This document shows positions 15,131 to 50,228 of a stretch of DNA of 57,052 bases, in pieces; within the stretch, counting starts at the first letter, position 1; every line of letters starts with the position of its first letter. The notes beneath the pieces are model-generated. The model did not search any database. It was not told where the DNA came from and saw only the letters and a list, made by a program, of their open reading frames with translations. Source of the DNA: Candidatus Hermodarchaeota archaeon (GTDB lineage: Archaea; Asgardarchaeota; Hermodarchaeia; Hermodarchaeales; Hermodarchaeaceae); the NCBI GenBank assembly GCA_016839365.1, contig JAEOUH010000033.1, positions 1 to 57,052 of the forward strand. Direction: 5' to 3'. The position numbers and the translations under genes were made by a program.

Positions 15131-16990
15131 CTAGTATCTATAGGACTCGACTTGTTTTTGAACGTGATTCACAATTTTTCTTGAGTGCAGCAGTTGCCAG
15201 ATTTGGTTGATATCATGATGGATCAGGTAATCTTGGGTTAGCCGATCAATCTGAGGAATTTGCATCTTCGAATATCGAGGAATCGTTTTACGAATCACAT
15301 CATAGGCGATTTGGGAGCCCTTGCCCAAGGTGACAGATTTGTTTAATCTTCTAATATCAATACCTTGTATCGCACACAGTAATTCGATGGCGATAATTTG
15401 CTCAACATTAACAAGAATTTCTTGTGCATGCCTTGCAGCAATTGTTCCCATGCTAACATGGTCCTCTTGATTCGCAGCGGTTGGAATTGATCGTACACTG
15501 GCAGGGGTTGTTAATTTCTGACACTCAGCCGTTAGAGCTGCGGCCGTAAGTTGAGCCAGTCCCAGCCCGAAGTACACACCCTGGTCAGCGAGAGTAGGGT
15601 GAATGAGCAGTAAAGGCAACCCATTGCTTAGCTTATCATCAATTAACCGGGAAATCCGACGTTCAGCAATGGCTGCAATAGTCGTCAATGCGATCGCGAG
15701 AAAATCCATAGCACAAGCTATGGGTTGGCCATGAAAGTTCCCCCCTGAAAGGAATGTTTTCGTTTTGGGAAAGATCAAGGGATTATCCGTTGCGGAATTA
15801 CATTCTATGGTGATAATCTGTTCAGCGTACTTTATGGTATCTCGTACTGCCCCAAGTACCTGTGGCGTGCAGCGAATGGAGTAGGCATCTTGTACACGTT
15901 GTGTTATATGAGCAGCATTAATGGCAGCTTCAAAGGCGGCTTTCGAGACTCCCAGCGTCTCAAAGTGTTGTTGGATCTGTGCCCGTTTGGTTTTCAATTG
16001 AGCAGCTGATTTTGGTGGTTCAACCGGAATCTGCTTGTCGAGAGCAATTATTGTATGAATTGCTTGCTGTAGAATCGTAGAAAGAGCTTCTTGATCGCCC
16101 TCAGGTGTGAGTTCGTCATGGAGTTTTTTCATCGCTGCTTGTGCACGTTTCCTTCGTTGCCGTGATGTCAATACTTGGGAGCTACCCGCCAAAATGGAGG
16201 AAAGATTATGGGCTGTTTGCAATTGGCCGGGATGAGGACGCACTTGTTGAATACGTTGATCAAAGGCGTCTAGCACTGCTTCTAAAGCTTCCATTGACAG
16301 GGCTGCGGCGATTTCTGCTGATGCGATCAGATTTCTGGCATCAGCAGTTGTTAGGGCAGCAATAGCTGTCATGATTTGGGTGCCGTTAATCAGCGCTATC
16401 CCTTCTTTCGGTCCCAATACGATTGGTGTTAATCCTGCTTGTTTAAGGGCATCAGCGCCTAGTAGAATTTCGCCCTTATACTCAGCTTCTCCTTCACCAA
16501 TTAATACAAGGACCATATGGGATAAGGGAGCAAGATCTCCACTTGCGCCAACAGACCCCTTTTCCGGAATAATTGGGTGCACCTCTTTATTGAGGAGATC
16601 AATGAGAAGCTGTAAAGTTGAGAGGCGAACACCAGAATAACCCTTAGCCAAGGTATTTGCACGTAGGAGCATAGCCCCCCGGACTACTTCGGTTGGTAAG
16701 GGAGATCCCACCCCCGCGGCATGACTAATGATTAGGTTGCGTTGGAGGACCTGCGCTTTTTCCTCAGAAATTACTATTTCACTCAGAGGTCCAAATCCTG
16801 TCGTTACTCCATAAATCACTTCTCCGGAATCAATCCAATTTGATACAAATTGAGCAGCAGTTTTGACTTTTTGTTCCGCTGAGGTAGAGAGTTTAACTTT
16901 GGTCCTGTTTCGTGCAACAGATACCAGTTCATCTATTGTTAGGTTATCTCCATCAACGATTATGGCAGGTGGACTCATTTTACTCACCAT
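15131..16990 (-). CDS. hutH: Histidine ammonia-lyase with an internal insertion
   Basis: A 619-residue HAL/PAL family enzyme that deaminates histidine to urocanate. The cofactor triad Ala149-Ser150-Gly151 (in GSVGASGDLAPLSH) forms the MIO electrophile; Tyr60 in VIYGVTTGFG, the RVQDAYSIRC segment (365-374) and NFHGQPIA are also present. It is about 110 residues longer than typical HutH (around 510); most of the excess is a helical, charged stretch at roughly 272-363 between RPHPGQLQTA and RVQDAYS. The start is ATG 16988-16990; an ATG four codons later has GGTGAG just upstream. It is on the opposite strand from hutU-ftcD-hutI but within 1.5 kb. Confidence 0.93.
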   Translation of the reverse strand: MVSKMSPPAIIVDGDNLTIDELVSVARNRTKVKLSTSAEQKVKTAAQFVSNWIDSGEVIYGVTTGFGPLSEIVISEEKAQVLQRNLIISHAAGVGSPLPTEVVRGAMLLRANTLAKGYSGVRLSTLQLLIDLLNKEVHPIIPEKGSVGASGDLAPLSHMVLVLIGEGEAEYKGEILLGADALKQAGLTPIVLGPKEGIALINGTQIMTAIAALTTADARNLIASAEIAAALSMEALEAVLDAFDQRIQQVRPHPGQLQTAHNLSSILAGSSQVLTSRQRRKRAQAAMKKLHDELTPEGDQEALSTILQQAIHTIIALDKQIPVEPPKSAAQLKTKRAQIQQHFETLGVSKAAFEAAINAAHITQRVQDAYSIRCTPQVLGAVRDTIKYAEQIITIECNSATDNPLIFPKTKTFLSGGNFHGQPIACAMDFLAIALTTIAAIAERRISRLIDDKLSNGLPLLLIHPTLADQGVYFGLGLAQLTAAALTAECQKLTTPASVRSIPTAANQEDHVSMGTIAARHAQEILVNVEQIIAIELLCAIQGIDIRRLNKSVTLGKGSQIAYDVIRKTIPRYSKMQIPQIDRLTQDYLIHHDINQIWQLLHSRKIVNHVQKQVESYRY

Positions 16991-30345: not shown

Positions 30346-33300
30346 TCAAATCCGCATGATCAACATAAATGACACAAGCAGGGCATAAATGGCGAGCGCT
30401 TCTGCCAGCACCACAGGTACCATTGACTTACTAAAGATTCCTGGCTTCTTCGCAATCGCGCCAATCAACCCCGCTCCAGCCCAACCAATCGCAATACCAG
30501 CCATCAATGCCCCTAACCCGACCGTTGCCGCAGCCGCCACTCCCACAAACGCCCCGATATCCGTAATCGCATCCAACCGCATTACCAACATAAACGCTGT
30601 CAACAAACCATAGATGCCTAACGCTTCGGCTAACACTACGGCGACCAAGCCTTTACTAAAAGACTCCGGCGATGACCGGATTCCCGTGCACAACGCCTCA
30701 CCCGAATACCCGATACCCAAGCCGCCTCCAATACCTGCGACCCCAATCGCCAATCCAGCACCAATGGCCAGCCACCCCTGGGCTGCAAAAGTGGCTGAAT
30801 CAATACGCATCACCACCATGAAGCCGACCAATAATCCGTAAATCCCCAACGCTTCGGCAAGGACAACGGCAACAAGCCCTTTACTGAAGGCACTCGACTC
30901 CACGGATATAGTCCGAGCCAATGCAGCGCCGGCATGGGCAATACCAAAACCGGCCCCAAAACAGGCAAAGCCTACTGCCAAAGCTGTACCTAATGCCATT
31001 AGACCTTGGGTGAGAAGTGTTACCGCATCAATCCGCATTATCAACATGAAACTCATTAACAAGCCATAAATCCCAAGCGCCTCCGCCAAGACCACACTGA
31101 CCAAGCCCTTGGAAAATACCTCAGGAGCCGTGACTAGGCTCACGCAGAGTGCAGCACCAGCTAAAGCAATGCCAATACCGCCTCCGATGGCCGCAAGTCC
31201 GATTGCTGCCCCAGCACCGATTCCGACCAATCCCTGCCCGATAGCCGTTACAGATTCCATCCTCATAAGCAGCATAAAACTTGATAGCAGTCCATAGATT
31301 CCAAGGGCCTCCGCCAACACAACAGCAACCAAACCTTTGCTGAAAATCTCTGGACGATGGACTAAGCCTTCCGATAAAGAGGAGCCACTTTTCGCGATAC
31401 CTATACCTGCACCGATAGCAGCTAAGCCGATGCTCAAAGCTGCACCAGCAGCGAGAAATCCCGGTGTGATATCGGTGACTGTGTCAATACGCATCAAGAG
31501 CATAAAACTAGCCAATAATCCGTAAATCCCGAGGGCTTCGGCTAGCACGACACTGACAAGCCCTTTACTGAAGACCTCAGGACGTGCAGCAAGGCTTCGT
31601 GATAAAGCCGCCCCAGCAAGGGCAATACCGAATCCAGCCCCAATAGCTGCCAACCCAATGGCTAGACCAGCAGATATGGCTACAATACTCTGACCAATCT
31701 GAGTCACGGAGTCGATTCGCATCAGTAACATGAAGCTTGTGAGTAATCCATAGATGCCCAACGCTTCCGCTAAAACAACACTCACCAAACCTTTACTAAA
31801 CGATTCGGGAGCGTATACGATAGTTCGTGACATGCTGGCCCCTGCACGAGCGATGCCAATACCGGCACCAAAAGCGGCAAAACCGATTGCCATACCCGCG
31901 CCAATACCAACAAGACCCTGCGCAATTCCAACTGGGTCGACACTGATCGTGTCGATTCGCATCAAAAGCATGAAACCAGCAAGCAACCCATAGATTGCTA
32001 ATGCTTCAGCAAGGACCACTCCTATGAGCCCCTTGCTGAAGATTTCTGGACGTTCAGCCAGGCTTTCTGAAAGGGCACTTCCAGCAGCAGCAATACCAAT
32101 CCCTGCACCTATACCTGCTACGCCTACAGCGACCGCCGCAGCCAAACCCATGAAGCCTTGTCCTAAGCCAGTAATTGTATCAATCCGCATAAGCAGCATA
32201 AAACTAGCCAAGAGCCCATAGATTCCGAGGGCCTCCGCCAACACGACACTGACAAGTCCCTTGCTGAAAGCTTCAGGTGCAACAACCAAAGTCCGATTTA
32301 TTGCCGAACCCGCTTGTGCGATACCATATCCTGCACCGATTGCGGCAAGTCCTATCGCTAATGCTGCCGCTAACCCCACCATGCCCTGACCAATTATGGT
32401 AACTGTTTCGATGCGCATCAGCAACATGAAACTCGCGAGCAGCCCATAGATACCAAGCGCTTCAGCTAACACGACACTGACAAGCCCTTTACTGAAGACC
32501 TCAGGTCGATCAACAAGACTGCGTGATAAGGACGCGCCTGCAGCAGCAATACCGATACCAGCACCAAATGCAGCTAATCCCACGCCCAGGGCCGCAGCAA
32601 CGGCAATCAACCCTTGGGCATCGACAGCGACAGTATCAATCCGCATCAGGAGCATGAAACTTGCCAAGAGCCCATAGATGCCCAACGCTTCCGCTAAAAC
32701 AACACTCACCAAACCTTTACTAAACGATTCAGGAGCTTCCACCAGAGCCTTACTCAGTGCGCCACCGGCAGCCGCGATGCCGATACCTGCACCTAGACCT
32801 GCAATACCCACGGCAAGTCCTGCACCAATCCCCACGAGCCCCTGAGTAACAAGGGTTGATGTTTCAATGCGCATCAGCAACATGAAACTCGCGAGCAGCC
32901 CATAGATACCAAGCGCTTCAGCTAACACGACACTGACAAGCCCTTTACTGAAGACCTCTGGTCGCTTCGTTAGGCTCTCAGACAAAGAGGCTCCACTCTT
33001 TGCAATACCAATACCTGCGCCTAAGGCGGCTAGACCTACTCCTAATGCAGCTGCAATCGCTATTAATCCTTGACCAAGAAATGTCACGGATTCGATACGC
33101 ATCAAAAGCATGAAACTAGCCAGAAGCCCGTAAATTCCCAAAGCTTCGGCTAACACGACGCCGACAAGTCCCTTACTAAAGGATTCAGGGGCAATAACCA
33201 GGGCCTTATTGAGCGCAGCGCCAGTTTGGGAGATGCCAATTCCAGCACCTAGTGCAGCGAGGCCAATCCCGAGTCCAGCCGCAATTGCTACCAATCCCTG

Positions 33301-33786
33301 CCCAATGTTAGTGGCGGACTCGATACGCATCAGGAGCATAAAACTGGTCAATAACCCATAGATCGCTAAAGCCTCTGCGAGCACCACGGACACTAGTGCT
33401 TTGCTAAAGGTTTGGGGTGCAGCTGCGGTACTGGTTGCCATGGCGCTTCCTGCTTTCGCTATGCCGATGCCAGCACCTATGCAGGAGAGGCCAATTGCTA
33501 GTCCTGCACCGAGGGCAACCAGTCCTTGTGCCTCATTGGTGATGGCGCCTATCCGCATCAGGAGCATGAAACTTGCGAGCAGACCATAGATCGCTAATGC
33601 TTCCGCGAGAACAACGGTGATCATGCTCTTGCTGAAGGATTCGGGTTTCTCGGCGACGGCACTCACCATGGCGCTTCCGCTGAATCCGATGCCAATTGCG
33701 GCGCCAGCTGCTCCAAGCCCTGCCGCAAGCACAGCACCGAATGCTGTGAAGACTTGTCCAATGTTAAGGAGGACTGCTTGAAGCAT
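30346..33786 (-). CDS. atpK: Giant A/V-type ATP synthase proteolipid (subunit K/c) with 15 fused hairpins
   Basis: A single 1146-residue membrane protein built from 15 tandem copies of a ~76-residue two-helix hairpin (30 TM helices). Each copy has a Gly/Ala-rich first helix (such as GLAALGAGIGIAKSG), a loop (RPEVFSKG or APESFSKG) and a second helix with VVLAEALGIYGLL. The ion-binding Glu is kept in all 15: near 62, 138, 214, 290, 366, 442, 518, 594, 674, 750, 826, 902, 978, 1054 and 1129. Ordinary archaeal K has one or two hairpins; Methanopyrus is known for 13. The protein may form the whole rotor ring. AEALGIYGLL resembles the H+-type site of eukaryotic c subunits. A 4-residue insertion follows hairpin 8. 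It is encoded 15 bp downstream of subunit I. Confidence 0.97.
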   Translation of the reverse strand: MLQAVLLNIGQVFTAFGAVLAAGLGAAGAAIGIGFSGSAMVSAVAEKPESFSKSMITVVLAEALAIYGLLASFMLLMRIGAITNEAQGLVALGAGLAIGLSCIGAGIGIAKAGSAMATSTAAAPQTFSKALVSVVLAEALAIYGLLTSFMLLMRIESATNIGQGLVAIAAGLGIGLAALGAGIGISQTGAALNKALVIAPESFSKGLVGVVLAEALGIYGLLASFMLLMRIESVTFLGQGLIAIAAALGVGLAALGAGIGIAKSGASLSESLTKRPEVFSKGLVSVVLAEALGIYGLLASFMLLMRIETSTLVTQGLVGIGAGLAVGIAGLGAGIGIAAAGGALSKALVEAPESFSKGLVSVVLAEALGIYGLLASFMLLMRIDTVAVDAQGLIAVAAALGVGLAAFGAGIGIAAAGASLSRSLVDRPEVFSKGLVSVVLAEALGIYGLLASFMLLMRIETVTIIGQGMVGLAAALAIGLAAIGAGYGIAQAGSAINRTLVVAPEAFSKGLVSVVLAEALGIYGLLASFMLLMRIDTITGLGQGFMGLAAAVAVGVAGIGAGIGIAAAGSALSESLAERPEIFSKGLIGVVLAEALAIYGLLAGFMLLMRIDTISVDPVGIAQGLVGIGAGMAIGFAAFGAGIGIARAGASMSRTIVYAPESFSKGLVSVVLAEALGIYGLLTSFMLLMRIDSVTQIGQSIVAISAGLAIGLAAIGAGFGIALAGAALSRSLAARPEVFSKGLVSVVLAEALGIYGLLASFMLLMRIDTVTDITPGFLAAGAALSIGLAAIGAGIGIAKSGSSLSEGLVHRPEIFSKGLVAVVLAEALGIYGLLSSFMLLMRMESVTAIGQGLVGIGAGAAIGLAAIGGGIGIALAGAALCVSLVTAPEVFSKGLVSVVLAEALGIYGLLMSFMLIMRIDAVTLLTQGLMALGTALAVGFACFGAGFGIAHAGAALARTISVESSAFSKGLVAVVLAEALGIYGLLVGFMVVMRIDSATFAAQGWLAIGAGLAIGVAGIGGGLGIGYSGEALCTGIRSSPESFSKGLVAVVLAEALGIYGLLTAFMLVMRLDAITDIGAFVGVAAAATVGLGALMAGIAIGWAGAGLIGAIAKKPGIFSKSMVPVVLAEALAIYALLVSFMLIMRI
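31748..31806 (-). repeat. 59-bp exact repeat inside atpK (copy A of pair 2)
   Basis: The segment is identical over 59 bases to 32672-32730, offset 924 bases, equal to four hairpin units plus the 12 bases of the 4-residue insertion. Exact silent-site identity between distant units suggests recent gene conversion or unequal recombination. Confidence 0.85.
32411..32502 (-). repeat. 92-bp exact repeat inside atpK (copy A of pair 1)
   Basis: The segment is identical over 92 bases to 32867-32958, offset 456 bases (exactly two 228-base units). Other units encoding the same residues differ at many silent sites, so this identity is recent. Confidence 0.88.
32672..32730 (-). repeat. 59-bp exact repeat inside atpK (copy B of pair 2)
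   Basis: Partner of 31748-31806. Confidence 0.85.
32867..32958 (-). repeat. 92-bp exact repeat inside atpK (copy B of pair 1)
   Basis: Partner of 32411-32502. Confidence 0.88.
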
Positions 33787-37541: not shown

Positions 37542-39179
37542 TCAGGGAACAGGAAATAGTGGTCCTAAGGCCCCATATGCAGCTTGTGTAGCGAAGTCGA
37601 GGAATAAGCCGGGGAAGAGACCAAGAATGATGATGAAGAGCATGAGGACGCCAATGACGAAGAGTAGTGACCAGTGTGGGCGTTTCGCGGTGGCAGCTTC
37701 AGGACTGGGTTCGGCGAACATCAGAATTTGGATCATTCGGAGGTAATAGACAACGCTGAAGGCGCTCATCAGGACCATGATGATTGTTGCTAGATAGGTT
37801 TGGGCGACGATGGAGCCCCAGATGATGTAGAACTTACTGTAAAATCCGACCAGGGGGGGGACACCAGCGAGGGAGAGAGCAGCGATGGTGAAACAGAACA
37901 TCACAAAGGGCATTCGGCGACCCACACCTTGGAGTTTGTCAAAGTCTCGAGTGCCCATTTGGTGTAAGAAGATGCCGGCGATCAAGAAGAGCATCCCCTT
38001 GGCCAGCATATGGGCGAAAATGTGGGCTAAGCTTCCAGTCACTGAATAGAGTAGAGCGTTTTCAATGGTGGTCGAAGTGGGAAGCCAGAGAGCAAGGGGC
38101 ATCATGGCAATGCTAAACCCGAAGATAATGAAGCCAACATTGACGATGGTGGAGTACGCCAACAACCGTTTCAGGTCTTTTTGTGTCAGGGCCATTAGGT
38201 TTCCATAAATCATAGTGAAGAGAGCGAACCAACTTAGGACAGCGCCGAAGTAGGTGAATGTGTAGGGGTCGAAGAAGAGGACGAGGAGGCGGATGAGGGC
38301 ATAGGCGCCAGTCATGATGACGACACCACTAAGCATGGCGCTGATGCCACTGGGAGCAGCGGGATGGGCGTCGGGAAGCCATGTGGAGAGTGGTGCGATG
38401 GCAGCTTTGACACCAAAGCCGATAACAATGCCGACAATAGTGAAGATGAGCAGACCATAAATCCCCGCTGTTGCTGGTGGTGAACTTGCTAGCAGGGCGT
38501 TGATGGCGGCTCCGATTTCGTAAAGGTTGAGTGTGCCGGTCAGTCCGTAGAGAATAGACATGGTGAATAGGATTAGGGTTGACCCAACGGCGCTGAGGAG
38601 CAAGTATTTGATACCCGCTTCAAGAGGTTCATCTTCATCGCGGCGGAAGGCAACCAAGACATAGCTGCTGATGGACATGGTTTCCCAGAGGATGAACAAG
38701 GTGAAGAAGTCCCCAGCAAACACGACACCAATCATTCCACCAATGAGTGTCAGTAAAAGTGCATAATACAGGGGAATCCGGGTATCGTGCTCCATGTACT
38801 TGATGGAGTAAAGGGATACGAAGAATGCCAGGAAGAGGAAGATGACTGCCATGTAGACTGAGAGGATGTCGATACGGAAGAAGGTGGCACCTGTTGCGGC
38901 GTCAAAAGCACCTGGGGGCCAATACCAGATATCGATTGGTGTCCAGCTATTATGGAAAAGTTGCCAATACAGACCATAAGTTGATCCCCAAGGTGTCACA
39001 ATTTGGAAAGGCCACAATACCATAACCAGGCTCAAGATGAAGAAAACCGCTGCTAGAATGCCAAGTATTGTCTTTCGTCGATCTTGCCAGAATCGCCCTA
39101 GCAAGGCAATGATGAGTGCTCCGATGAAAGGGAGCCAGAGAGGTGTGAGTTGAATCCATTCTAAAGGTCCGATTGCCAT
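37542..39179 (-). CDS. nuoN: Complex-I-type membrane subunit N (antiporter-like)
   Basis: A 545-residue protein with about 14 helices. The helix-5 Glu is in FTLFILWETMSISSYVLVAF, and the conserved Lys/His region is KAAIAPLSTWLPDAHPAAPSGISAMLSGVVI. Together with L and M it forms a proton channel of the membrane arm in Nuo/Fpo complexes. It is the last gene of the operon J1-J2-K-L-M-N, 16 bp after M. ATG 39177-39179 has GGAGG upstream. It could equally be called FpoN or a hydrogenase antiporter subunit. Confidence 0.93.
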   Translation of the reverse strand: MAIGPLEWIQLTPLWLPFIGALIIALLGRFWQDRRKTILGILAAVFFILSLVMVLWPFQIVTPWGSTYGLYWQLFHNSWTPIDIWYWPPGAFDAATGATFFRIDILSVYMAVIFLFLAFFVSLYSIKYMEHDTRIPLYYALLLTLIGGMIGVVFAGDFFTLFILWETMSISSYVLVAFRRDEDEPLEAGIKYLLLSAVGSTLILFTMSILYGLTGTLNLYEIGAAINALLASSPPATAGIYGLLIFTIVGIVIGFGVKAAIAPLSTWLPDAHPAAPSGISAMLSGVVIMTGAYALIRLLVLFFDPYTFTYFGAVLSWFALFTMIYGNLMALTQKDLKRLLAYSTIVNVGFIIFGFSIAMMPLALWLPTSTTIENALLYSVTGSLAHIFAHMLAKGMLFLIAGIFLHQMGTRDFDKLQGVGRRMPFVMFCFTIAALSLAGVPPLVGFYSKFYIIWGSIVAQTYLATIIMVLMSAFSVVYYLRMIQILMFAEPSPEAATAKRPHWSLLFVIGVLMLFIIILGLFPGLFLDFATQAAYGALGPLFPVP

Positions 39180-39195: not shown

Positions 39196-40773
39196 TTATG
39201 GGGTTAGGGGGAACCCTGTTGGGTTAAGTGGGAAAGCAAAGGGGAACTGCTGTGTGAGTCCAATCAAGATCGGGTTGAGCACAATGAAGGGCAAAACACC
39301 GATGATTATGATGAGGGCAGCAAGTAGAAGCATGGGGAGTCGCATGGTCCATGGACTCTCTTCGATTTTTTCCATTTCAGTGGGCGTAGGTCCAAAGAAC
39401 ACACGTTTAATGAACCAGAGGACATAAGCGGCGGTGACAGCTGATCCTGCTACAGCAAAGATCACCAACCAGATCGTATAAGCAAAGGCAGCTCCAGCAA
39501 AGATGAAGAATTCGGAGAAGAACCCAGCCAATGGTGGAGTGCCCGCGATGCTAAGGGCAGCGATTAATGCAATGGTTGCGGTCCAGGGCATCTTCTTGGC
39601 TAGACCACCCATGGCGTTAATGTCACGTCCGCGCTCATGGCCTACTTTGACGATGAGGACGCCGGCGACCATAAACAAGAGACCTTTACCTAGGGCATGA
39701 GTGAAGATATGGAAGGTTGCTCCTGACACGCCAAGGAGCACTGCGGTTCCAAGTCCGAAGAAGATGTAACCCATCTGGGATATCGATGAATAGGCAAAGA
39801 GCCGTTTAGTATCCTTTTGGGCTAGCGCCATGGCTCCGCCATAAAACATCGTTATGAGCCCAAAGATCATAATAATTGGTATGAAGGTTGCGAAAGCAGG
39901 TAACAGATAACCCATCAGGATTCGGACAATCGCGTATGCGGCTGTGGCAATCATGACTCCGGATAAGATGGCACTGATAGGAGTAGGTGCTTCAGCGTGT
40001 GCGTCTGGAAGCCATGAGTGAATGGGAAAGATAGCCATTTTCACAGCAAACCCAATAGTGAGAAGAATAACCAAAATCTTTGTAATTTCAAAGAACGGTT
40101 GGGTAAACAAGGTGGGTATGCCACCGGGCCAGATCCAGTGCAAGTCGATTGTTGGGGTTAGCCCTGCTTGCGAGAAGTCATAAAGGTTGAGGGTCGCAAC
40201 TCCATTGTAGGCTGAAAGGGCATACATACCAGCGATTCCGACAATGATGAGAACGGCACCAACATGGGTATAGATGAAGTATTTGAGGGCGATATTGGTG
40301 GATTGGGGTTTTGTTCCCCATTCGGCGATGAGGAAGTAGCTGGGGATGAGCATGAGCTCCCAGAAGATATAGAACTGAAAGAGGTTGGTAGCAATGACAA
40401 CACCAAAGATCCCGGCGTTGTATAGAAGGAGCAAGGCGTAGTATTTCCCTTTACCATGTTCATCCTTCATGTAGGCCAGCGAATAAATAGTGGCCGCCAT
40501 CGTGAGAATGATGACTATTCCCGCAACGGTGACACTGAGTCCATCCAAGAGCCAGCCAAAGTGGAAGGGTCCCCAAATAAACTCTTCGAAATAGACGCCG
40601 CCGTTGATGAGATATTCATTCCATGCTAGGATATAGGTGACCATGCTGGCGAACATTATCAGGATCGCGAAGAAACCAGCAGAGCGTCCGTTTCGCCGAC
40701 CAATAATGTATGCGATGATCGAGCCGATTAATATGAGCAACATAGTAACTGTTAGCCAAGGTAAGAGCGCCAT
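39196..40773 (-). CDS. nuoM: Complex-I-type membrane subunit M (antiporter-like)
   Basis: A 525-residue protein of about 14 helices. Conserved Glu in FYIFWELMLIPSYFLIAEWG and Lys in AVKMAIFPIHSWLPDAHAEAPTPISAILSGVM mark the proton path; TKRLFAYSSISQMGYIFFG is the broken-helix region. It belongs to the operon between L and N, 11 bp after L. ATG 40771-40773 has GGTGA 6 bases upstream. Homologous to MrpD/A-type antiporter subunits, but the gene order and length favour NuoM/FpoM. Confidence 0.94.
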   Translation of the reverse strand: MALLPWLTVTMLLILIGSIIAYIIGRRNGRSAGFFAILIMFASMVTYILAWNEYLINGGVYFEEFIWGPFHFGWLLDGLSVTVAGIVIILTMAATIYSLAYMKDEHGKGKYYALLLLYNAGIFGVVIATNLFQFYIFWELMLIPSYFLIAEWGTKPQSTNIALKYFIYTHVGAVLIIVGIAGMYALSAYNGVATLNLYDFSQAGLTPTIDLHWIWPGGIPTLFTQPFFEITKILVILLTIGFAVKMAIFPIHSWLPDAHAEAPTPISAILSGVMIATAAYAIVRILMGYLLPAFATFIPIIMIFGLITMFYGGAMALAQKDTKRLFAYSSISQMGYIFFGLGTAVLLGVSGATFHIFTHALGKGLLFMVAGVLIVKVGHERGRDINAMGGLAKKMPWTATIALIAALSIAGTPPLAGFFSEFFIFAGAAFAYTIWLVIFAVAGSAVTAAYVLWFIKRVFFGPTPTEMEKIEESPWTMRLPMLLLAALIIIIGVLPFIVLNPILIGLTQQFPFAFPLNPTGFPLTP

Positions 40774-40784: not shown

Positions 40785-42959
40785 TCATGGTAAGAAGGGA
40801 ATGGGTATCATCAGCACGCCTCCTAGAAACTGAAACAGCAACAGGAGGATGATGAATAAGAGGGCACCGATGAGCAGCAGAATCATGTTCCAACTGTGGA
40901 CACCGGTTTGAATTCGACGCCACCGACGGCTCAACCCAACGGAGCCGTAAGCGATTGCATAATTTGCACGGTCAATACCTTTGATTTCAACCTTATTGAA
41001 CAGACCTCGGGCAAACCAGAGCCCGCCATTGACGAAGATCTTGTACATCAGGGCATTCCAATACCAACGACGGTCCAAGAACTTATAGAGCCCACCAAGG
41101 GCACCGCGGCCAACGAACTCGGGACTCCAACTTCGACGGATATAGAACATGTATCCAAGAAGGCCACCTAGCAGGATAACCCCTAAGGAGATGAGAAAGG
41201 TGGGAGAGATGCCATAGACAGGATTGGTGAAGACATGTTCGAAGAAGTAAATGTAGTCTTCAATTATTGTGCCAAAGTGGGGGTAGCCAGGAATCAGGTT
41301 AAATTGGTCGTGCCAGAAAGTGAAGAAGTACCGTTCAAACAGGGGTTGTAAGAATCCAATCACCAGGGTAATCCCGGCAAGAATGGCCAGGGGAATCCAC
41401 ATGACCCCGGGGGGATCGTGAGCGGGATGACCTTCAGATTCCAGGGACTTAACATGGGCACTGGGTTCACCATAGAAGGTAAGCCCAATCATTCGGAATG
41501 AATAGAAAATCGTCATTATGGCAGTGATTGCACCAAAGGCGAGGAAGATCCAGCCCCAGATACTGCCCATGGCGCCAAGTTCCCACGCTGAGGCGAAGAT
41601 GAGTTCCTTACTCCAGAATGCTCCAAAGGGTGGAACGCCACTAAGTGAGAGAACACCGATGAACATTACTATGAATGTAATAGGCATTAATTTTCGGAGC
41701 CCACCCATATCGGTCAAATATTTGGAGTGGACAGCATGGAGAACGGCACCTGCAGAGAGGAAGAGCAGGGCTTTGAAGACAGCGTGGGTGGCTAAATGAA
41801 AGACACCAGCGGTATAGCCGATAATTCCGTCAGCTGTGAAAGCGAAAATGCCTAGGGCCATGAACATGTAACCTAACTGGCTGATGGTGCTGAATGCCAA
41901 GACCTTCTTCAGTTCCTTCGATGTCAGGGCCATCGTTGCAGCCATAAACGATGTAAAGGTTCCGATGATGGCGATGATGAGGAAGAAGTTATTGAGCACA
42001 AAGGCAGTAATGGTCCCTGAAGTGGCAATAAATGCTGAAACCAGTATAGGTGCCATTCGCGCCACTAAGTAGACTCCAGCTTTGACCATGGCCGCGGCAT
42101 GGATAAGGGCAGATACGGTGGTGGGTCCGGCCATGGCTTCAGGGAGCCAGAACTGAAGTGGGAACTGGGCACTTTTTCCAATGGGTCCCAGGAAGAAGAG
42201 TAGAAATACACCCATAAGAAGTAGCCCGTTTAGGATTGCAGCCATATTATACAGCCAGGTGAAATCAGTCTGAAGCACCTGATAGTTTAGGGTCGGATTT
42301 CCTGCTGAAACTGTGAAGAATGCAATGAAAACAATCGAAATCAGGAGCCCAACGTCTCCAACTCGGGTAACGATGAAAGCCTTCATTCCACTGTGAGAGT
42401 TAAGTTTTCCTTCTGTCACTTCACCGAGTTGATCGTCCTTTACCATATTCTTTCGGTTATACCAGAAACCAATCAGGGCATATGAACAGAGACCGACGAT
42501 TTCCCAGCCAATGAATGTTACAAAGAGGGAGTTAGCCATCACCAACAAGGTCATTCCGCCAATGAACAATTGCATCAGGAACCAGTAACGGGTAAGGGAT
42601 TCATCTCCCTTCATGTAGCCTAGGCTGTAGACGAGAATGAGAAAGCCAATACCCGTTGCGATACAGGCCATGAAGACTGAGAGTGGATCGACAAGCACCC
42701 CAAACTGAATTGAGAAGTTAATGACTGGAACCGTAATCCATTCAATAGAGTGCTCATACCAGTAGAGTGGGGGGGTGCCGATCCAAGCAGCGCCACTCCA
42801 TATGAATGGCACCATGGCAAGGGCCATGATCATGCCTAATGCTCCGAAAATAACAGCTCCAAAGTCTCGGAGCCGCGGGTGTATTTTTGCGAAAATTGGT
42901 GTCAAGAGAGCCCCAATGAGTGGAAATAAGAAGCAAAGCCAAGCAATATAAGGAAGCAT
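40785..42959 (-). CDS. nuoL: Complex-I-type membrane subunit L (antiporter-like, long form)
   Basis: A 724-residue protein with about 16 helices and a long C-terminal part, as in NuoL/FpoL with the lateral helix (the stretch after AILAGITLVIGFLQPLF). Conserved Glu in FVTFIGWEIVGLCSYALIGFWY and the Lys/His region in FPLQFWLPEAMAGPTTVSALIHAAAMVKAGVY are present. It is the distal proton-pumping subunit. GGGTGA is upstream of ATG 42957-42959. The length exceeds typical MrpA-like Ech subunits, supporting the complex-I-type assignment. Confidence 0.94.
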   Translation of the reverse strand: MLPYIAWLCFLFPLIGALLTPIFAKIHPRLRDFGAVIFGALGMIMALAMVPFIWSGAAWIGTPPLYWYEHSIEWITVPVINFSIQFGVLVDPLSVFMACIATGIGFLILVYSLGYMKGDESLTRYWFLMQLFIGGMTLLVMANSLFVTFIGWEIVGLCSYALIGFWYNRKNMVKDDQLGEVTEGKLNSHSGMKAFIVTRVGDVGLLISIVFIAFFTVSAGNPTLNYQVLQTDFTWLYNMAAILNGLLLMGVFLLFFLGPIGKSAQFPLQFWLPEAMAGPTTVSALIHAAAMVKAGVYLVARMAPILVSAFIATSGTITAFVLNNFFLIIAIIGTFTSFMAATMALTSKELKKVLAFSTISQLGYMFMALGIFAFTADGIIGYTAGVFHLATHAVFKALLFLSAGAVLHAVHSKYLTDMGGLRKLMPITFIVMFIGVLSLSGVPPFGAFWSKELIFASAWELGAMGSIWGWIFLAFGAITAIMTIFYSFRMIGLTFYGEPSAHVKSLESEGHPAHDPPGVMWIPLAILAGITLVIGFLQPLFERYFFTFWHDQFNLIPGYPHFGTIIEDYIYFFEHVFTNPVYGISPTFLISLGVILLGGLLGYMFYIRRSWSPEFVGRGALGGLYKFLDRRWYWNALMYKIFVNGGLWFARGLFNKVEIKGIDRANYAIAYGSVGLSRRWRRIQTGVHSWNMILLLIGALLFIILLLLFQFLGGVLMIPIPFLP

Positions 42960-42978: not shown

Positions 42979-43314
42979 TTAATGGCGCAGTTTGTTGAGT
43001 TTTCGGATATCGAGGGTTCCGAATTTATTGTATGCTCGAATGAAAAAGGCTAAGGCAATTGCTATGACTCCACCGCCAATACAGATACTGACGATGACAA
43101 TCGCTTGAGCCATTAAGTCAATGTAAAAGCCCGACCAAGCCGTCGCAAATGTGATGAAGTTCAAATGGGCTCCGTCGAGTAGTAATTCCAACGCGATGAG
43201 GAATTTAATCATGTTCCGTTTCGTTGCCATCCCGTAGATACCCACAGCGTACAGGAAGACCGCCAAGATAAGAAATGCTTGCAATGGGACGCCTAAAATA
43301 TCAAGATATGTCAT
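42979..43314 (-). CDS. nuoK: Complex-I-type membrane subunit K
   Basis: A 111-residue protein with three helices (ILAVFLYAVGIYGMATKRN, then IKFLIALELLLDGAHLNFITFA with the functional Glu, then IVIVSICIGGGVIAIALAFFI). The Glu-containing second helix is the signature of NuoK/MrpC. The ATG is 6 bases after the J2 stop and its SD (GGAG) overlaps that stop, so it is translationally coupled. Confidence 0.92.
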   Translation of the reverse strand: MTYLDILGVPLQAFLILAVFLYAVGIYGMATKRNMIKFLIALELLLDGAHLNFITFATAWSGFYIDLMAQAIVIVSICIGGGVIAIALAFFIRAYNKFGTLDIRKLNKLRH

Positions 43315-43320
43315 CGTATC

Positions 43321-43632
43321 TTACTCCTTTTCCTCTGGTTTCGTCGATTCTTTCTTTACCTCGTAGAAGAACGCAGAGCTAGCTAGAGCAGCTGCCAGCA
43401 AAAACACACCAAGTAGGACCATATCGATCCCACGGAAATGCCAGAGCATATTCCCGAGCAACTGAATCATTGCATAAACATTATCAGGAGATGGGACAAA
43501 TCGGTGGACCCAAGATGCGGGGTTAACCACTACACTGGGATCCAAATAGAACCCAGTGGCCATTGCAATCACCCAGGCAGCAATAACGCCAAATAGGAAA
43601 GTGAGGATACAGCCAGCAACTTTGATTCTCAT
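43321..43632 (-). CDS. C-terminal half of split NuoJ/FpoJ-type subunit (J2)
   Basis: A 103-residue membrane protein with two helices (VAGCILTFLFGVIAAWVIAMA and DMVLLGVFLLAAALASSAFF) and a charged tail ending in KPEEKE. Its position between J1 and K, its start overlapping J1 by 4 bases, and the last helix equivalent to the end of NuoJ support its being the second half of J. Sequence alone is too short and variable to prove this. Confidence 0.6.
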   Translation of the reverse strand: MRIKVAGCILTFLFGVIAAWVIAMATGFYLDPSVVVNPASWVHRFVPSPDNVYAMIQLLGNMLWHFRGIDMVLLGVFLLAAALASSAFFYEVKKESTKPEEKE

Positions 43633-43997
43633 CGGACGTCCTCCTCTTCAATCTCCCCAGTGCCACGACGGGTTGTTAATGAAATCCCAGAAATAATAAT
43701 CACGGTAACAGCCCCAGCATAAATCGCAAGTTGAAAGAAGGCGACCCAGATGGCGAAGAGTAGCAGGTAAATGAGAGCTAAGGTTATGGCTGAGCCGGCG
43801 AGGTAGAGGGCGGCATGTAGGAGATCTTTATCTTCAATGGCGAGTATAGCGAAGACAGCGGTCATGACAATGAGGATATAGATGGTCATAACTCGGAGTC
43901 CTGGGATGAACTGGTCGAGTGCCACAAGTAAAATCATAATGATGCTGAGAAGTATGAGGCCTAGTAGGCCAACGACCGCGGTACGTGATATTGACAT
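43629..43997 (-). CDS. nuoJ: N-terminal half of split NuoJ/FpoJ-type subunit (J1)
   Basis: A 122-residue membrane protein with three to four helices. The segment DLLHAALYLAGSAITLALIYLLLFAIWVAFFQLAIYAGAVTVIII-like pattern (LHAALYL, QLAIYAGAVTV) is the conserved core of NuoJ/FpoJ. The protein ends after this core (TRRGTGEIEEEDVR), where full-length NuoJ continues for two more helices, here apparently encoded by the next gene. Methanosarcina also has J as two genes. It is first gene of the J1-J2-K-L-M-N operon. Confidence 0.85.
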   Translation of the reverse strand: MSISRTAVVGLLGLILLSIIMILLVALDQFIPGLRVMTIYILIVMTAVFAILAIEDKDLLHAALYLAGSAITLALIYLLLFAIWVAFFQLAIYAGAVTVIIISGISLTTRRGTGEIEEEDVR

Positions 43998-44996: not shown

Positions 44997-45350
44997 GTGG
45001 TGAACGCTACAATGCAGGATTATTTCAGCTGGCTAAATAACATCAGCAACGTTGGCTGGTTCCTGACGGCCTTTGGCGTTGTCCTTCTCATTGTTCTTCT
45101 TATGTATTGGATAGGTAAACGTATTGCCCCTAATAATCCGACCAAGGAAAAGACCACTACCTATGCTTGCGGTGAAGACCTTGCCCCATCAAAGGCACAA
45201 TTTCACACGCACCTACTCCGTTACGCTGTCTATTTCACGATTTTTGACATCGTCGCCTTTGTGTTGGCGACATCAATGGGCGTCCTCGGATGGGTTCCAA
45301 TTATCTTCCTGGCTGTCGCGTTTCTGGCGATTATTATTCTGCGAAAATAG
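44997..45350 (+). CDS. nuoA: Complex-I-type subunit A
   Basis: A 117-residue protein with three helices. The loop after helix 1 carries KTTTYACGEDLAPSKAQFHTHLLRYAVYFTIFDIVAFVLA, with the YxCGE and FDIxxF patterns of NuoA/FpoA. NuoA links the membrane arm to the hydrophilic part and is not found in simple Ech or Mbh hydrogenases. The start is GTG 44997; ATG 45012 is an alternative. It is followed by B (17 bp) and C (32 bp). Confidence 0.9.
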   Translation: MVNATMQDYFSWLNNISNVGWFLTAFGVVLLIVLLMYWIGKRIAPNNPTKEKTTTYACGEDLAPSKAQFHTHLLRYAVYFTIFDIVAFVLATSMGVLGWVPIIFLAVAFLAIIILRK

Positions 45351-45367
45351 ACGAAGAGGTAATCGAA

Positions 45368-45802
45368 ATGGGTATCGTTGAAAAAATCGTAACCTGGGCT
45401 CGCATCAAATCCCCCTGGGTGCTTCATTTGAACTCTGGTGGATGCAACGGATGCGACATCGAAATTCTTGATGCGCTGACTCCCCGGTATGACTTGGAAC
45501 GCTTCGGCGTCCTCTTGAAGGGTAGTCCACGTCATGCTGATGTACTATTGTGTTCTGGTCCAATTACCAAGCAAACGGCCAAGCGGTTTCTGCGAATCTA
45601 CAATCAGACACCCGATCCGAAATTTGTTGTAGGGATCGGTTCCTGCACGATGTCCGGTGGAGTGTTCCGAGAATGTTACAATGTCATCGGTGGATTAGAT
45701 GGCGTCATTCCGGTGGACGCTTGGATTCCCGGATGTCCCCCGAAGCCTGAAGCGATTATATATGGTGTTGCTGCTCTACTCGGGAAATTAGCTGGTTCAT
45801 GA
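45368..45802 (+). CDS. NuoB-like / energy-converting [NiFe] hydrogenase small subunit
   Basis: A 144-residue iron-sulfur subunit. Cys ligands are Cys26 and Cys29 (SGGCNGCDIEILDALTPRYDLE), Cys93 (GSCTMSGG) and Cys123 (IPGCPPKPE). The C-x2-C with NGCDIE, plus the following PRYDLERFG and SPRHADVLL, match group 4 [NiFe] hydrogenase small subunits (EchC/MbhJ/HyfI type). Canonical NuoB/FpoB has an adjacent Cys pair instead. It carries the proximal/N2-like [4Fe-4S] cluster. The start ATG 45368 has GAGGT upstream. The genes for the matching large subunit (D) are not in the window. Confidence 0.9.
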   Translation: MGIVEKIVTWARIKSPWVLHLNSGGCNGCDIEILDALTPRYDLERFGVLLKGSPRHADVLLCSGPITKQTAKRFLRIYNQTPDPKFVVGIGSCTMSGGVFRECYNVIGGLDGVIPVDAWIPGCPPKPEAIIYGVAALLGKLAGS

Positions 45803-45834
45803 GTCTTTTACGGAATTGATGGAGGAAACAGATA

Positions 45835-46332
45835 ATGGCAAGTGAAGAGAAACCCCCAAAGAAGCCTACGAAAAAAGAAGGCGAAATGATGGCCGAGTTT
45901 GAAAAAGCCATGGGTAATGATTTTGTTTCTTCAGAATTTCTACGAGAACATAGCATCTATGTGACCGTTAAAGCTGAAGCTGTCCGAAAGGCTGTTGAAT
46001 GGATGAAGACCGAATGGGGACTTACCCATCTTTCCACCATTACCGGCATGGATCTCCGTGGTGAACTAGCGGTCATTTATCATTTTGAGGTCAAGGCTGT
46101 CTCAGTGAGCTTACACATACAGGTACCCACCTCTCATCCCGAAGTTGATTCTATTACCCCCCTAATTCCTGGTGCAGTCCTTTATGAACGCGAGGTCCAT
46201 GATTTGCTGGGAATCAAATTCAAGGGACACCCAAACCTCGCCCGGCTCATATTGCCAGAAGATTGGCCTAAGGACGTTTACCCACTTCGCAAAGATTGGG
46301 AATCACCACGACTTGATAAACCGGACAAGTAA
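45835..46332 (+). CDS. nuoC: NuoC / hydrogenase 30-kDa-like subunit
   Basis: A 165-residue protein. The core is LTHLSTITGMDLRGELAVIYHFEVKA, followed by the family signature YEREVHDLLGIKFKGHPNLARLILPEDWPKDVYPLRKD. An N-terminal extension rich in Lys/Glu/Pro (KPPKKPTKKEG) is unusual. It is a peripheral, cofactor-free subunit that contacts B and D. GGAGGAA lies 7 bases before ATG 45835. D is absent downstream, where the mtd gene converges instead. Confidence 0.92.
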   Translation: MASEEKPPKKPTKKEGEMMAEFEKAMGNDFVSSEFLREHSIYVTVKAEAVRKAVEWMKTEWGLTHLSTITGMDLRGELAVIYHFEVKAVSVSLHIQVPTSHPEVDSITPLIPGAVLYEREVHDLLGIKFKGHPNLARLILPEDWPKDVYPLRKDWESPRLDKPDK

Positions 46333-46410: not shown

Positions 46411-47259
46411 CTATTTAGTTTTCTCGGGTTTGGTTCCAAGTTTTGTGTGGGTGCCAACTGTTCCATTGTTGAAGTGCGGTGAGCGATGTAGGTTATCACC
46501 ATATTTTTCAATTTCCCGGGCTTCATCCGCAAGGAATGCGGCGGAGCGCATCATTTCATGGGCACTCGCTACGAGGGGAATGTAATTGGCATGGTCTTTT
46601 TCCTTGAAACAACCCTTCACGTTGATAGGGGCCACTGCAACCGCCATTTCGTACGCTGCCATTGCTTTTGCCTTTGCGTAAGGATTGGTGAAATTGCCAG
46701 CATTGACAGCGCTCGCAGCATTAACAACAAGGGTTGGAAGCTTGGGAACTTTCCCGGCCGTGATGGTAGCGATGACCTCGTCTAGGGCCAGTTGTACTCG
46801 TCGAAGGGCACCAGTTGCTGCTAAAACCCGAATCACATCCGCATTGAAGAGAGCCATCTCAGTGGGATCCAAGAATTCCCGTCGTGCTCCAATCATCGAG
46901 TCAGCAGGAAGGAGGATATATCCAAATCCCGCCTCCGCAAGGGATTCGCGTTGATCCTTGGGTAATAAATCAGAAAGTAAGATGACAGGGATGCCTGCTT
47001 CCTTGACGAGATCTCTGGCTTTCGCCGGCCCTTTGAGGGCCGCATTGGGGCTTGGAATGAGTACGAGATGCGGTTTTTGTTCGATAAGCAATTTCGCGCT
47101 GCGTTCTGCAGCAGCTTCGTCCATTTTGGCTCCCGAGCCAATTAATACAACGTCGAAGTTTTCACGTTCTGCTCGTTCATCGAATAGAAGTTCGAGTAAT
47201 GGTGATGCTCCGATGTTACCGAGTTTGAGGACACCGAGGAGAAAGGGTGAGGAACTCAA
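46411..47259 (-). CDS. mtd: F420-dependent methylenetetrahydromethanopterin dehydrogenase
   Basis: A 282-residue Mtd. Conserved parts are VLKLGNIGASPLLELLFDERAER, PHLVLIPSPNAALKGPAKARDL, DSMIGARREFLDPTEMALFNADVIRVLAATGA, NPYAKAKAMAAYEMA and SAHEMMRSAAFLADEAREIEKYGDNLHRSPH. The enzyme reversibly oxidises methylene-H4MPT to methenyl-H4MPT while reducing F420. It implies an H4MPT-type C1 pathway and F420. Start TTG 47257-47259 has GGTGG upstream. It is adjacent to an F420-oxidoreductase subunit on the same strand (108 bp). Confidence 0.94.
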   Translation of the reverse strand: MSSSPFLLGVLKLGNIGASPLLELLFDERAERENFDVVLIGSGAKMDEAAAERSAKLLIEQKPHLVLIPSPNAALKGPAKARDLVKEAGIPVILLSDLLPKDQRESLAEAGFGYILLPADSMIGARREFLDPTEMALFNADVIRVLAATGALRRVQLALDEVIATITAGKVPKLPTLVVNAASAVNAGNFTNPYAKAKAMAAYEMAVAVAPINVKGCFKEKDHANYIPLVASAHEMMRSAAFLADEAREIEKYGDNLHRSPHFNNGTVGTHTKLGTKPEKTK

Positions 47260-47367
47260 TGTTTAACCACCAATTAATTTTGATTAATTGTAGGGACTAG
47301 AAGCTTCTGTCGTGGTCTAATGAAAAAAGTGTTTACCTTCGAAGGAATAATCAGAGTAGAGTAAGGT

Positions 47368-48417
47368 TTAATGAGAGGTCTTGATTTTTGGCGTTGCGAT
47401 TTTTCGTAATCGGTTCAGTCCTTCATCAGCTAGTTCATCTTGCAACAACAGTCCTTTAGTGATCATCTCTTCAATTACGGCTTGTCCTTGCTCAGTACGG
47501 ATGAGAACTGAAGACCATTTGCTTGGAGTGCCTGCTCCACCTACGGAAATGTCAGCGAATTCGGAGGCGAAATCCTTGCATCCATGACAGCCTGGGTCAA
47601 TCCAGCCCTGCGCCTCAGTCAATGGGATTTCCAGCGATCCTTCGGCACCTCGAGGATAAACAAGGAGCTTGCCCTTGATATCGAGTTTCCGTAGGTTCGT
47701 CAAAGGAATGCCGAGTTCACCGACGATTTTGTCTTCCATCAGCTCCTTGAATTTGAACGTTTCACTGCAGAATAGCCCGATGGTCATGACCACGGTGCGA
47801 TCGACCTTCTTTAGTGGGGCTAGCCGCATTCGTTGGATAGCCTGGATATGACAGGGTGTGCCTACGACAGCAACTTGTTTGAGTTTCAGCTCTTTCATCG
47901 CTTCCTTAAGGGCTACAAGATTTGGTGATCGTGTGTATCGTGACTTGGTCGCAGAAATGATGGCTGTGCGGGTCATGGCAACCATTGGTTTGGGTTTCCA
48001 GGGCTCGTCGGGATGAATTCCAGAAACGATAGCTCCCTCAATGGCGCCGGTCTCAAGTAAGTGAAGGAGAATTGCGGTAACGACGCCACCATCTTGGGCT
48101 CGTTTTCGTATTGATTCATCCGCGTTTCGTAGGGCATAAGCTTGACGAAATACACCAAGGGCTGGATCCCGATTGACATTCTCTCCATATACAACTGGAT
48201 AGATAGTAGAATAATCGGCGATCATTCGGGGGCAGGATTTCCAGCAGAACTCACATTTCGTACAATCTTTCACAAGTGTAGGGGAAAGATTTTGGAGTTC
48301 AATGGCTCCGATGGGACAGGCTGCTTCGCAGCCACCACAACTGCAGCATTTTCCAGAATCAATTACATTGGCTTCGAGGTGCTCAAATCCCAGCTTTTCC
48401 TTACTCAACGGTTTCAC
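47368..48417 (-). CDS. F420H2 dehydrogenase/hydrogenase beta-like subunit (FpoF/FrhB family)
   Basis: A 349-residue iron-sulfur flavoprotein. Two N-terminal [4Fe-4S] motifs are Cys24-x2-Cys27-x2-Cys30-x3-Cys34 and Cys52-x2-Cys55-x2-Cys58-x3-Cys62. The FrhB domain follows, with QDGGVVTAILLHLLETGAI, VGTPCHIQAIQRM, CHGCKDFASEFADISVGG. Length and two ferredoxin motifs match FpoF/FqoF, the F420H2-oxidising subunit of the methanogen complex. Related FrhB-fold proteins serve sulfite, glutamate synthase or hydrogenase, so FpoF identity is inferred from nearby complex-I subunits. Start GTG 48415-48417. Confidence 0.85.
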   Translation of the reverse strand: MKPLSKEKLGFEHLEANVIDSGKCCSCGGCEAACPIGAIELQNLSPTLVKDCTKCEFCWKSCPRMIADYSTIYPVVYGENVNRDPALGVFRQAYALRNADESIRKRAQDGGVVTAILLHLLETGAIEGAIVSGIHPDEPWKPKPMVAMTRTAIISATKSRYTRSPNLVALKEAMKELKLKQVAVVGTPCHIQAIQRMRLAPLKKVDRTVVMTIGLFCSETFKFKELMEDKIVGELGIPLTNLRKLDIKGKLLVYPRGAEGSLEIPLTEAQGWIDPGCHGCKDFASEFADISVGGAGTPSKWSSVLIRTEQGQAVIEEMITKGLLLQDELADEGLNRLRKIATPKIKTSH

Positions 48418-48951: not shown

Positions 48952-49106
48952 TGATAATCCCTTTCTCGGCACTGACTTAGTTGAGGTTTTTAGCTCTTCG
49001 GGAGATTCGAACCACTTGTAAAGATGCAATTGCGAAAGAAGTATTAGGTATCCTGTTTGACAGAATGTGTAATTTAAAGAGAATTAGAATCATTGAGGAA
49101 CTTACG

Positions 49107-50228
49107 ATGACAGGAAGTTTCGCTAATATGGACCCCTTGGAGGTGCAAAAGGGCTTCCGAGATGCTGAGCTAGCTCGGAAAGCGGCGCAGAGGATCAAAG
49201 AACTAGCGAAGACGCGTCCCTTCAAGTTTATGCACCTGTGTGGAACACACGAGTATACTATTACACATTCAGGGCTTCGCCAGCTGTTACCCGAGAACGT
49301 GGAATTAATCGCTGGTCCAGGATGTCCTGTGTGTGTCTGCCCACCTGAAGATGTCGCATTGGCAATTATGGTGGCAAAGCAGCCCAATGCCCTACTCACC
49401 ACTTACGGGGATATGATGCGGGTCCCAGCAGGCGACCTTGGATCATTGAATACATCACGCACCAAAGGAGCCAATGTGCAAGTCGTTTACAGTATGATGG
49501 ATGCCATTATCGCCGCCAAAGAACACCCCGACAAAGAAGTCGTCCATTTTGCAATTGGCTTTGAAACGACCACACCTCCAACCGCTGCAGAAATTCTGGG
49601 AGATCCCCCCGCAAATTTCAGCGTCTTGGTGAGCCATCGTCTCATTCCACCCGCTGAAGAGTTTCTGCTTGAGCAAGGCGAGGTCGGATTGCACGGTTTT
49701 CTTTTACCAGGTCATGTATCTGTCATCATTGGTGAACAGGGATATGAGCACATATCCAAACGATGGAAAGTCCCTCAGGTTATTGCCGGGTTTGAACCCT
49801 TAGATGTGTTACTCGCCCTTGTGATGTTGTTACAGCAAGTCGAAGATGGCCGTGGAGAAGTTGAAAATGAATACACGCGGGCCGTCACCTTCGAAGGGAA
49901 TGTCCGCGCCCGAGAAATGATCGAGCAGGTGTTTGAGCCAGTAGACTCACGGTGGCGTGGAATTGGTGTCATTCCAGAGTCGGGTCTAGCCTTACGTGAA
50001 GAATACATGAATTTCGATGTACGAACACGGTTTGAGATAGAAGTGGAACCGCAAAAATATGAAATGCCTCCTGGATGCAAATGCGGTGAGGTGCTCCGTG
50101 GTATTATGCGGCCTGAAGAATGTCCACTCTTTGGGAACAAGTGTATACCGGAAAACCCAATTGGACCCTGTATGGTTTCTATGGAGGGGACTTGCAGTGT
50201 TGTTTATGGAGCGCAGATGGTTCCTTAG
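49107..50228 (+). CDS. hypD: [NiFe] hydrogenase maturation protein HypD
   Basis: A 373-residue HypD. Its Cys sites are Cys45 in MHLCGTHE and Cys73/Cys76 in GPGCPVCV, and the C-terminal [4Fe-4S] cluster Cys are in GCKCGEVLRG...CPLFGNKC...GPCMVSMEGTC. It assembles the Fe(CN)2CO group with HypC. The ATG 49107 (GAGG upstream) gives the normal family length; a longer frame from 48981 is not needed. HypD is found without other hyp genes here, but it means a [NiFe] hydrogenase is made by this organism. Confidence 0.95.
   Translation: MTGSFANMDPLEVQKGFRDAELARKAAQRIKELAKTRPFKFMHLCGTHEYTITHSGLRQLLPENVELIAGPGCPVCVCPPEDVALAIMVAKQPNALLTTYGDMMRVPAGDLGSLNTSRTKGANVQVVYSMMDAIIAAKEHPDKEVVHFAIGFETTTPPTAAEILGDPPANFSVLVSHRLIPPAEEFLLEQGEVGLHGFLLPGHVSVIIGEQGYEHISKRWKVPQVIAGFEPLDVLLALVMLLQQVEDGRGEVENEYTRAVTFEGNVRAREMIEQVFEPVDSRWRGIGVIPESGLALREEYMNFDVRTRFEIEVEPQKYEMPPGCKCGEVLRGIMRPEECPLFGNKCIPENPIGPCMVSMEGTCSVVYGAQMVP

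Follow-up and report, generated by a model that had tools for sequence, protein, structure and literature searches.

Where do the electrons of coenzyme F420 go in an archaeon that carries the gene for F420-dependent methylene-H4MPT dehydrogenase (Mtd) and a gene of the FrhB family next to the genes of a complex I-like membrane complex? The question is raised by a 57,052-nucleotide stretch of DNA from a Candidatus Hermodarchaeota archaeon (the window), which is the entire contig C91 of a 2.23 Mb genome (G000, here the own genome; 93 contigs, 83.7% complete). In its first-pass annotation, the FrhB-family protein was compared with FpoF/FqoF and suggested to pass F420H2 electrons to an adjoining proton-pumping cluster, with H2 evolution or quinone reduction as the outcome. 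We analysed the window together with its relatives (G000 to G007, the family), which comprise five genomes of one genus and three of another and are 74–86% complete. A contig scan with the 349-aa FrhB protein as the query retrieved three named relatives, all from Hermodarchaeota, with 75–83% identity. The genes in question are the following:

37542..39179, minus strand: HfoN / NuoN-like antiporter subunit with a VKAA motif (TIGR01770, 252.5 bits, below the cut-off)
39196..40773, minus strand: HfoM / NuoM-like antiporter subunit with a VKMA motif (TIGR01972, 332 bits; cut-off, 263.8)
40785..42959, minus strand: HfoL / NuoL-like antiporter subunit with a GKSA motif (TIGR01974, 472 bits; cut-off, 407.5)
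42979..43314, minus strand: HfoK / NuoK-like subunit (named from its sequence and its position between J and L rather than from a family profile; orthologues in the family)
43321..43632, minus strand: hydrophobic ORF of 103 aa between J and K (no Pfam or NCBIfam match)
43629..43997, minus strand: HfoJ / NuoJ-like subunit, N-terminal part (Pfam Oxidored_q3, 46.5 bits)
44997..45350, plus strand: HfoA / NuoA-like subunit (Pfam Oxidored_q4, 35.4 bits)
45365..45802, plus strand: HfoB / NuoB-like small subunit with a GCNGC motif (TIGR01957, 150.6 bits; cut-off, 142.7)
45835..46332, plus strand: HfoC / NuoC-like subunit (Pfam Complex1_30kDa, 112.6 bits)
46411..47259, minus strand: Mtd (PRK00994, 368.9 bits; cut-off, 297; profile positions 5–277 of 277; Pfam MTD, PF01993, 370.9 bits over the full length)
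47368..48417, minus strand: FrhB-family F420 oxidoreductase of 349 aa with an N-terminal 2x[4Fe-4S] ferredoxin domain (Pfam, NCBIfam, PDB match and AlphaFold fold)
48981..50228, plus strand: HypD, [NiFe] hydrogenase maturation protein (TIGR00075, 471 bits; cut-off, 192.8)

Elsewhere, the window encodes a V-type ATPase proteolipid (K subunit; 30346-33786, minus strand) whose single chain of 1146 aa contains 15 hairpin repeats in tandem, marked by 15 FSK and 15 VVLAEAL-type motifs; the Methanopyrus proteolipid has 13 such repeats. Genes that by eye resemble those for histidine degradation (urocanase, formiminotransferase, imidazolonepropionase and HutH) occupy positions 9770-16990, and two adjacent genes, likewise labelled by eye, encode TFB-like transcription factors (2072-4297, minus strand).

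The complex beside Mtd and the FrhB protein is, as judged from its sequence motifs and subunit set, an Hfo-type (Fpo-like) [NiFe] hydrogenase and not a quinone reductase. Subunits A, B and C match the NuoA, NuoB and NuoC families, and B, already noted as hydrogenase-like in the first-pass annotation, indeed carries the hydrogenase-type GCNGC motif, which is the same in the seven family members read. The genes for J, the 103-aa ORF, K, L, M and N diverge from A-B-C, and the channel Lys is present in the listed motifs of L, M and N. The 103-aa ORF, conserved in G001, G002, G003 and G005, is probably the second half of J. The proton-pumping cluster of the first-pass annotation is represented in the window by A-B-C and J-N; the window lacks D, H and I, and no NADH-module gene was seen in it. 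The own genome carries D at one end of contig C55 and H-I on contig C31 (with Pfam support); added to the eight subunit genes of the window, these complete the 11-subunit Hfo set. D was found in seven of the eight family genomes (not in G002); the search for H and I covered G000 to G005.

Both [NiFe]-binding motifs, L1 (CGICSQ[SA]H) and L2 (DPC[FM]SCTDR), occur in six of the seven family D proteins, the seventh being cut by a contig end before L2; where D is complete, all four [NiFe] cysteines are kept (cited motifs, CGICSQSH and DPCFSCTDR). Among PDB matches, D scored highest against the membrane hydrogenase subunit MbhL of P. furiosus (278 bits), ahead of HycE of FHL (256 bits) and NuoD (212 bits). 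From a D tree of 45 rows, which has several long branches and includes two proteins that are not D and look like group 3 hydrogenases (L165 and L190), we draw on nothing but the separation of proteins with [NiFe] ligands from those without: the family D proteins fall among the rows with [NiFe] motifs, and 13 NuoD-type rows without the ligands make up a clade of their own (100/100). D, H and I, though scattered, probably form one complex with the window genes. This is supported by three other Asgard genomes (G021, G028 and G035), in which A-B-C-D-H-I are contiguous and opposite J-N, with 65–69% identity to the family in B and 52–53% in D.

The Hfo of Bathyarchaeia (11 subunits, as described in PMC7886697) has the same A-B-C-D-H-I-J-K-L-M-N set and a D subunit with L1 and L2. 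A complex-I-like group 4 hydrogenase has also been described in Frey- and Atabeyarchaeia, in an account from 2024 that places Hermodarchaeia nearby (PMC11291895). The hermodarchaeal locus differs from both systems in that D, and H-I, lie away from A-B-C and J-N, that Mtd and the F420 oxidoreductase stand at the break, and that J appears to be split into two ORFs.

These data bear on the possibility of a genuine Fpo/Fqo that would deliver F420H2 electrons to quinone or methanophenazine. Its subunit set and the antiporter-like L, M and N are those of complex I, and Hermodarchaeota were annotated by Zhang et al. (2021; PMC8163825) with seven subunits of F420H2 dehydrogenase (fpo) and 11 of NADH-quinone oxidoreductase. 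Four family genomes, moreover, encode a separate C and a ligand-free fused I-B-D protein that could in principle share the membrane arm. However, no such fusion turned up in the own genome, the motif of B is of the hydrogenase type, the [NiFe] ligands of D are intact in the six genomes with a complete copy, and the FrhB protein scores far below the FpoF cut-offs (see below). Quinone reduction, one of the two outcomes initially suggested, is thus rejected as the main reading of the complex on account of the [NiFe] ligands on D, which largely refute an Fpo/Fqo; we regard it as very improbable.

The fusion protein (670 aa; L065:9204-11216, also at L066, L067 and L068) joins an I-like ferredoxin, a NuoB with a tandem-Cys GCC motif and a ligand-free NuoD. 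In G001, G003, G004 and G006 it is preceded by a C gene, with no membrane subunits recognised beside it, and it is possibly part of a second peripheral arm. The own genome also has a second group 4 hydrogenase beside a group 3b-like hydrogenase and Hdr-like genes (L069, G000:C46:12001-32000; labels by eye).

The FrhB protein has two CxxCxxCxxxCP motifs followed by FrhB_FdhB_N (PF04422, 85 bits) and FrhB_FdhB_C (PF04432, 127 bits), both above their cut-offs, in agreement with the two [4Fe-4S] motifs and the FrhB domain noted at first pass. In an alignment of 11 homologues, the FrhB-domain cysteines C189, C217, C277 and C280 are invariant, as are all four cysteines of ferredoxin motif 1 and three of the four in motif 2, whose first cysteine is replaced by Asp in the three sequences from the second genus. 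The two Pfam domains and the four FrhB-domain cysteines assign the protein to the FrhB/FdhB-fold F420 oxidoreductases. Within this fold, its highest-scoring NCBIfam model is PRK09325 of the FrhB subfamily (249 bits; cut-off, 269), and the FrhB equivalog TIGR03289 gives 214.3 bits against a cut-off of 331.5, which excludes it from that family; a genuine FrhB (the 3zfs_C stretch) scores 479.8 bits. The FrhB subunit of Frh (3ZFS, 6QGR) shares the FrhB domain but lacks the ferredoxin domain, which in Frh sits on FrhG and is matched by residues 14-70 of the window protein; unlike in Frh, there is no group 3 hydrogenase gene beside the window gene.

The likeness to FpoF/FqoF extends to length, the two N-terminal [4Fe-4S] motifs and the FrhB domain, but not, by model score, to the family: the two FpoF models give 165.3 and 159.2 bits (aligned region, 16-344) against cut-offs of 444 and 475, and the neighbouring complex is a hydrogenase. 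Seven other ferredoxin-FrhB proteins from Asgard archaea and an ethanotroph, CODH zeta and FwdI among them, score 123–198 bits against the same models, so that the resemblance to FpoF is one of layout. On these scores, we reject membership of FpoF/FqoF; no chain named FpoF appeared among the PDB matches of the protein.

Its best-scoring PDB match is an FrhB chain (190 bits) and covers the FrhB domain only (83-346); the nearest match over the full length is the CODH zeta chain 8riu_B (186 bits, residues 8-341). An AlphaFold model (mean pLDDT, 86; pTM, 0.88) matches FrhB and zeta chains with TMq values of 0.63–0.91, among them 0.91 for 8riu_B and about 0.71 for FrhB chains, and FwdI (8rja_E) with 0.84. 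In an FrhB-family tree of 34 rows, none of them FpoF or FqoF, the eight family proteins form a single clade (100/100) on a long stem, apart from FrhB, zeta and FwdI.

CODH zeta of Ca. Ethanoperedens thermophilum (8RIU) and the ethanotroph FwdI (8RJA) have been shown to be F420 reductases, and the features that they share with the window protein are the N-terminal 2x[4Fe-4S] part and the FrhB domain with its [4Fe-4S] cluster and FAD (PMC11493965). Since these closest structures are subunits of larger enzymes, the FrhB protein could likewise belong, as F420-reducing subunit, to another soluble enzyme, such as CODH, formylmethanofuran dehydrogenase or an Hdr-type enzyme; CODH and Fwd genes are taken here from Zhang et al. 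(PMC8163825). Its identity to zeta and FwdI is 34% and 29%, respectively. We consider such a role unlikely, given that no CODH, Fwd or Hdr partner gene was recognised beside the FrhB gene in the loci read and that the protein stands apart from zeta and FwdI in the tree. It also ends at residue 349, without the 350-370 dimer extension of zeta, which FwdI lacks as well (PMC11493965).

No PF04432 protein other than the FrhB protein was found in the own genome, so that any FrhB-type link between F420 and iron–sulfur carriers would have to use this protein; a second FrhB-type gene could be absent from the assembly because the genome is 83.7% complete. The query found a single match per genome in all five genomes of the genus, and the other genus has a second, distant match (27–31% identity). 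No relatives were found in the viral contigs scanned, and a plasmid search returned 29 records, every one below 60% identity. One of these, on a plasmid of Haloferax mediterranei, adjoins a gene annotated as ferredoxin-nitrite reductase. The four nearest FrhB genes from Asgard archaea outside the family (G013, G021, G014 and G016) had no Mtd or Hfo neighbours when these were compared with the window proteins.

The FrhB gene and Mtd are neighbours on the same strand in 8/8 family genomes; in G005, G006 and G007 the two are separated by a single ORF of about 338 aa. In the second genus, the inserted ORFs at L078:8924-9943 and L079:8789-9808 encode 339 aa, and the L078 copy (G006) has no Pfam match. 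Mtd faces gene C in seven of the eight genomes, the G005 contig ending 403 bases past Mtd. This arrangement is more than chance. However, many surrounding genes also keep their order across the family, so that the adjacency of FrhB and Mtd to the Hfo genes is real but not special. A-B-C (44997..46332, plus strand) converge on Mtd with a gap of 78 bp between C and Mtd, which places Mtd and FrhB outside the A-B-C transcription unit; the opposite strand and convergent orientation rule out an operon with A-B-C.

Conserved position could nevertheless mean that the FrhB protein serves Hfo as a dedicated entry point for electrons, with the ferredoxin domain docked on the I/B side in the way that FpoF docks on Fpo, for ion-moving H2 evolution driven by F420H2 or for F420 reduction driven by H2. 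Consistent with this are the place beside A-B-C, held in two genera, the FpoF-like domain layout, the proximity of HypD and the remaining Hfo genes, and the fact that no other FrhB-type protein was found in the genome. Against it, besides the separate transcription and the limited weight of adjacency among so many genes of conserved order, five related Asgard Hfo-like loci have neither FrhB nor Mtd within the 16–20 kb read, G028 has an Hfo cluster and no FrhB match at E 1e-10, and Hfo clusters are described in PMC7886697 without FpoFO. FrhB and Mtd also occupy the place that D-H-I have in the relatives, so that their position may be a by-product of rearrangement. We therefore hold docking on Hfo to be rather unlikely, if worth keeping in mind.

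The last of these points could be taken further: Mtd and FrhB might be Wood-Ljungdahl genes that landed at the D-H-I break and have no functional link to Hfo, with FrhB serving in some unrelated F420 reaction. C is directly followed by D-H-I in three relatives, and Mtd has different contexts in G011, G013 and G021. A purely incidental position appears highly improbable, however, as the two genes stay together in every family genome, even with an intervening gene, and both encode F420-type enzymes.

Use of F420 by the family is well supported. CofE is above the cut-off in all eight genomes (own genome, 279.8 bits; cut-off, 180.65), CofD in 7/8 (326.7 bits; cut-off, 257.45), and Mer in five of the six searched, which include all five of the genus. 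The FO synthase is the missing part: CofG was found in none of six genomes (G000 to G005) and CofH was above the cut-off in none of eight (best score, 26 bits against 374), the same search having detected CofH in 19 of 59 genomes. If misses are assumed to be independent, the chance that eight genomes with 74–86% completeness all lack one gene is about one in a million, a figure that a shared assembly bias would raise. A lack of F420 biosynthesis genes, named at first pass as grounds against an F420 circuit, was thus found for the FO synthase but not for CofE and CofD. Inspection by eye of the genes around CofE and CofD in the own genome showed no clear substitute for FO synthase. With CofG and CofH below threshold, the cells must obtain the core of F420 from outside or make it with an enzyme that was not recognised. 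For CofH, the same pattern of no match above threshold is seen in four other Asgard genomes: G010 (98% complete in one contig), G013, G021 and G028. A 2021 review lists several F420 genes for Odin- and Thorarchaeota genomes and all of them for Loki-, Heimdall- and Helarchaeota (PMC8498797). A limited search of titles on Asgard archaea, F420, CofG and CofH returned none on a gap in FO synthase, which is weak evidence.

Combining docking with scavenging gives a bolder version, an F420-coupled energy-converting hydrogenase in which FrhB, docked on Hfo and fed by F420H2 from Mtd, would couple C1 oxidation to ion-coupled H2 release, the deazaflavin core of F420 being scavenged from neighbours. If true, it would be an F420-fed form among the hydrogenase relatives of complex I; we think it distinctly unlikely.

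The reading that we favour, and to which we give about an even chance, is that the FrhB protein is a soluble ferredoxin:F420 oxidoreductase that ties Mtd and Mer to ferredoxin and thereby to Hfo. It would work on its own as an F420 oxidoreductase with an FrhB fold, in which electrons would pass between the two N-terminal [4Fe-4S] clusters, the [4Fe-4S] cluster of the FrhB domain and FAD, and FAD and F420 would exchange hydride. Soluble ferredoxin is its most likely partner. In the oxidative direction, F420H2 from Mtd and Mer would return electrons to ferredoxin, and Hfo would exchange ferredoxin electrons with protons and H2, presumably with ion movement, so that F420, ferredoxin and H2 would form one circuit. 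Soluble ferredoxin:F420 reduction by FqoF has been proposed for Archaeoglobus and Korarchaeia, the potentials given there being -420 mV (ferredoxin) and -340 mV (F420; PMC10667645).

In favour of a soluble ferredoxin:F420 oxidoreductase are the clusters of the FrhB protein, the match to 8riu_B, the constant neighbourhood of Mtd, the presence of Mer in the genus and the [NiFe] motifs on D. On the other side, the F420 enzymes with an FrhB fold that the PDB search returned are complexed with, or fused to, their redox partners, which makes a free, ferredoxin-dependent state less documented; the lack of CofG and CofH, the Asp in motif 2 of the second genus and the long-stemmed clade of its own also count against it. 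On balance, F420 and the Hfo complex probably meet via ferredoxin, and H2 is more likely to be the end product than quinol.

Taken singly, the F420 genes and the Hfo hydrogenase are each of a known kind; their pairing is real and conserved. The data also bear on the published F420H2 or NADH dehydrogenase label in Hermodarchaeota: a cluster of that kind retains a [NiFe] site. The retention of CofD, CofE, Mtd, Mer and FrhB with the FO synthase missing suggests that the family imports FO or has an unknown enzyme to make it. Finally, Loh et al. (2021; PMC7886697) did not settle how archaea that combine Hfo with the archaeal Wood-Ljungdahl pathway form F420H2, and no FrhB-type candidate for that F420 link other than the gene described here was found.
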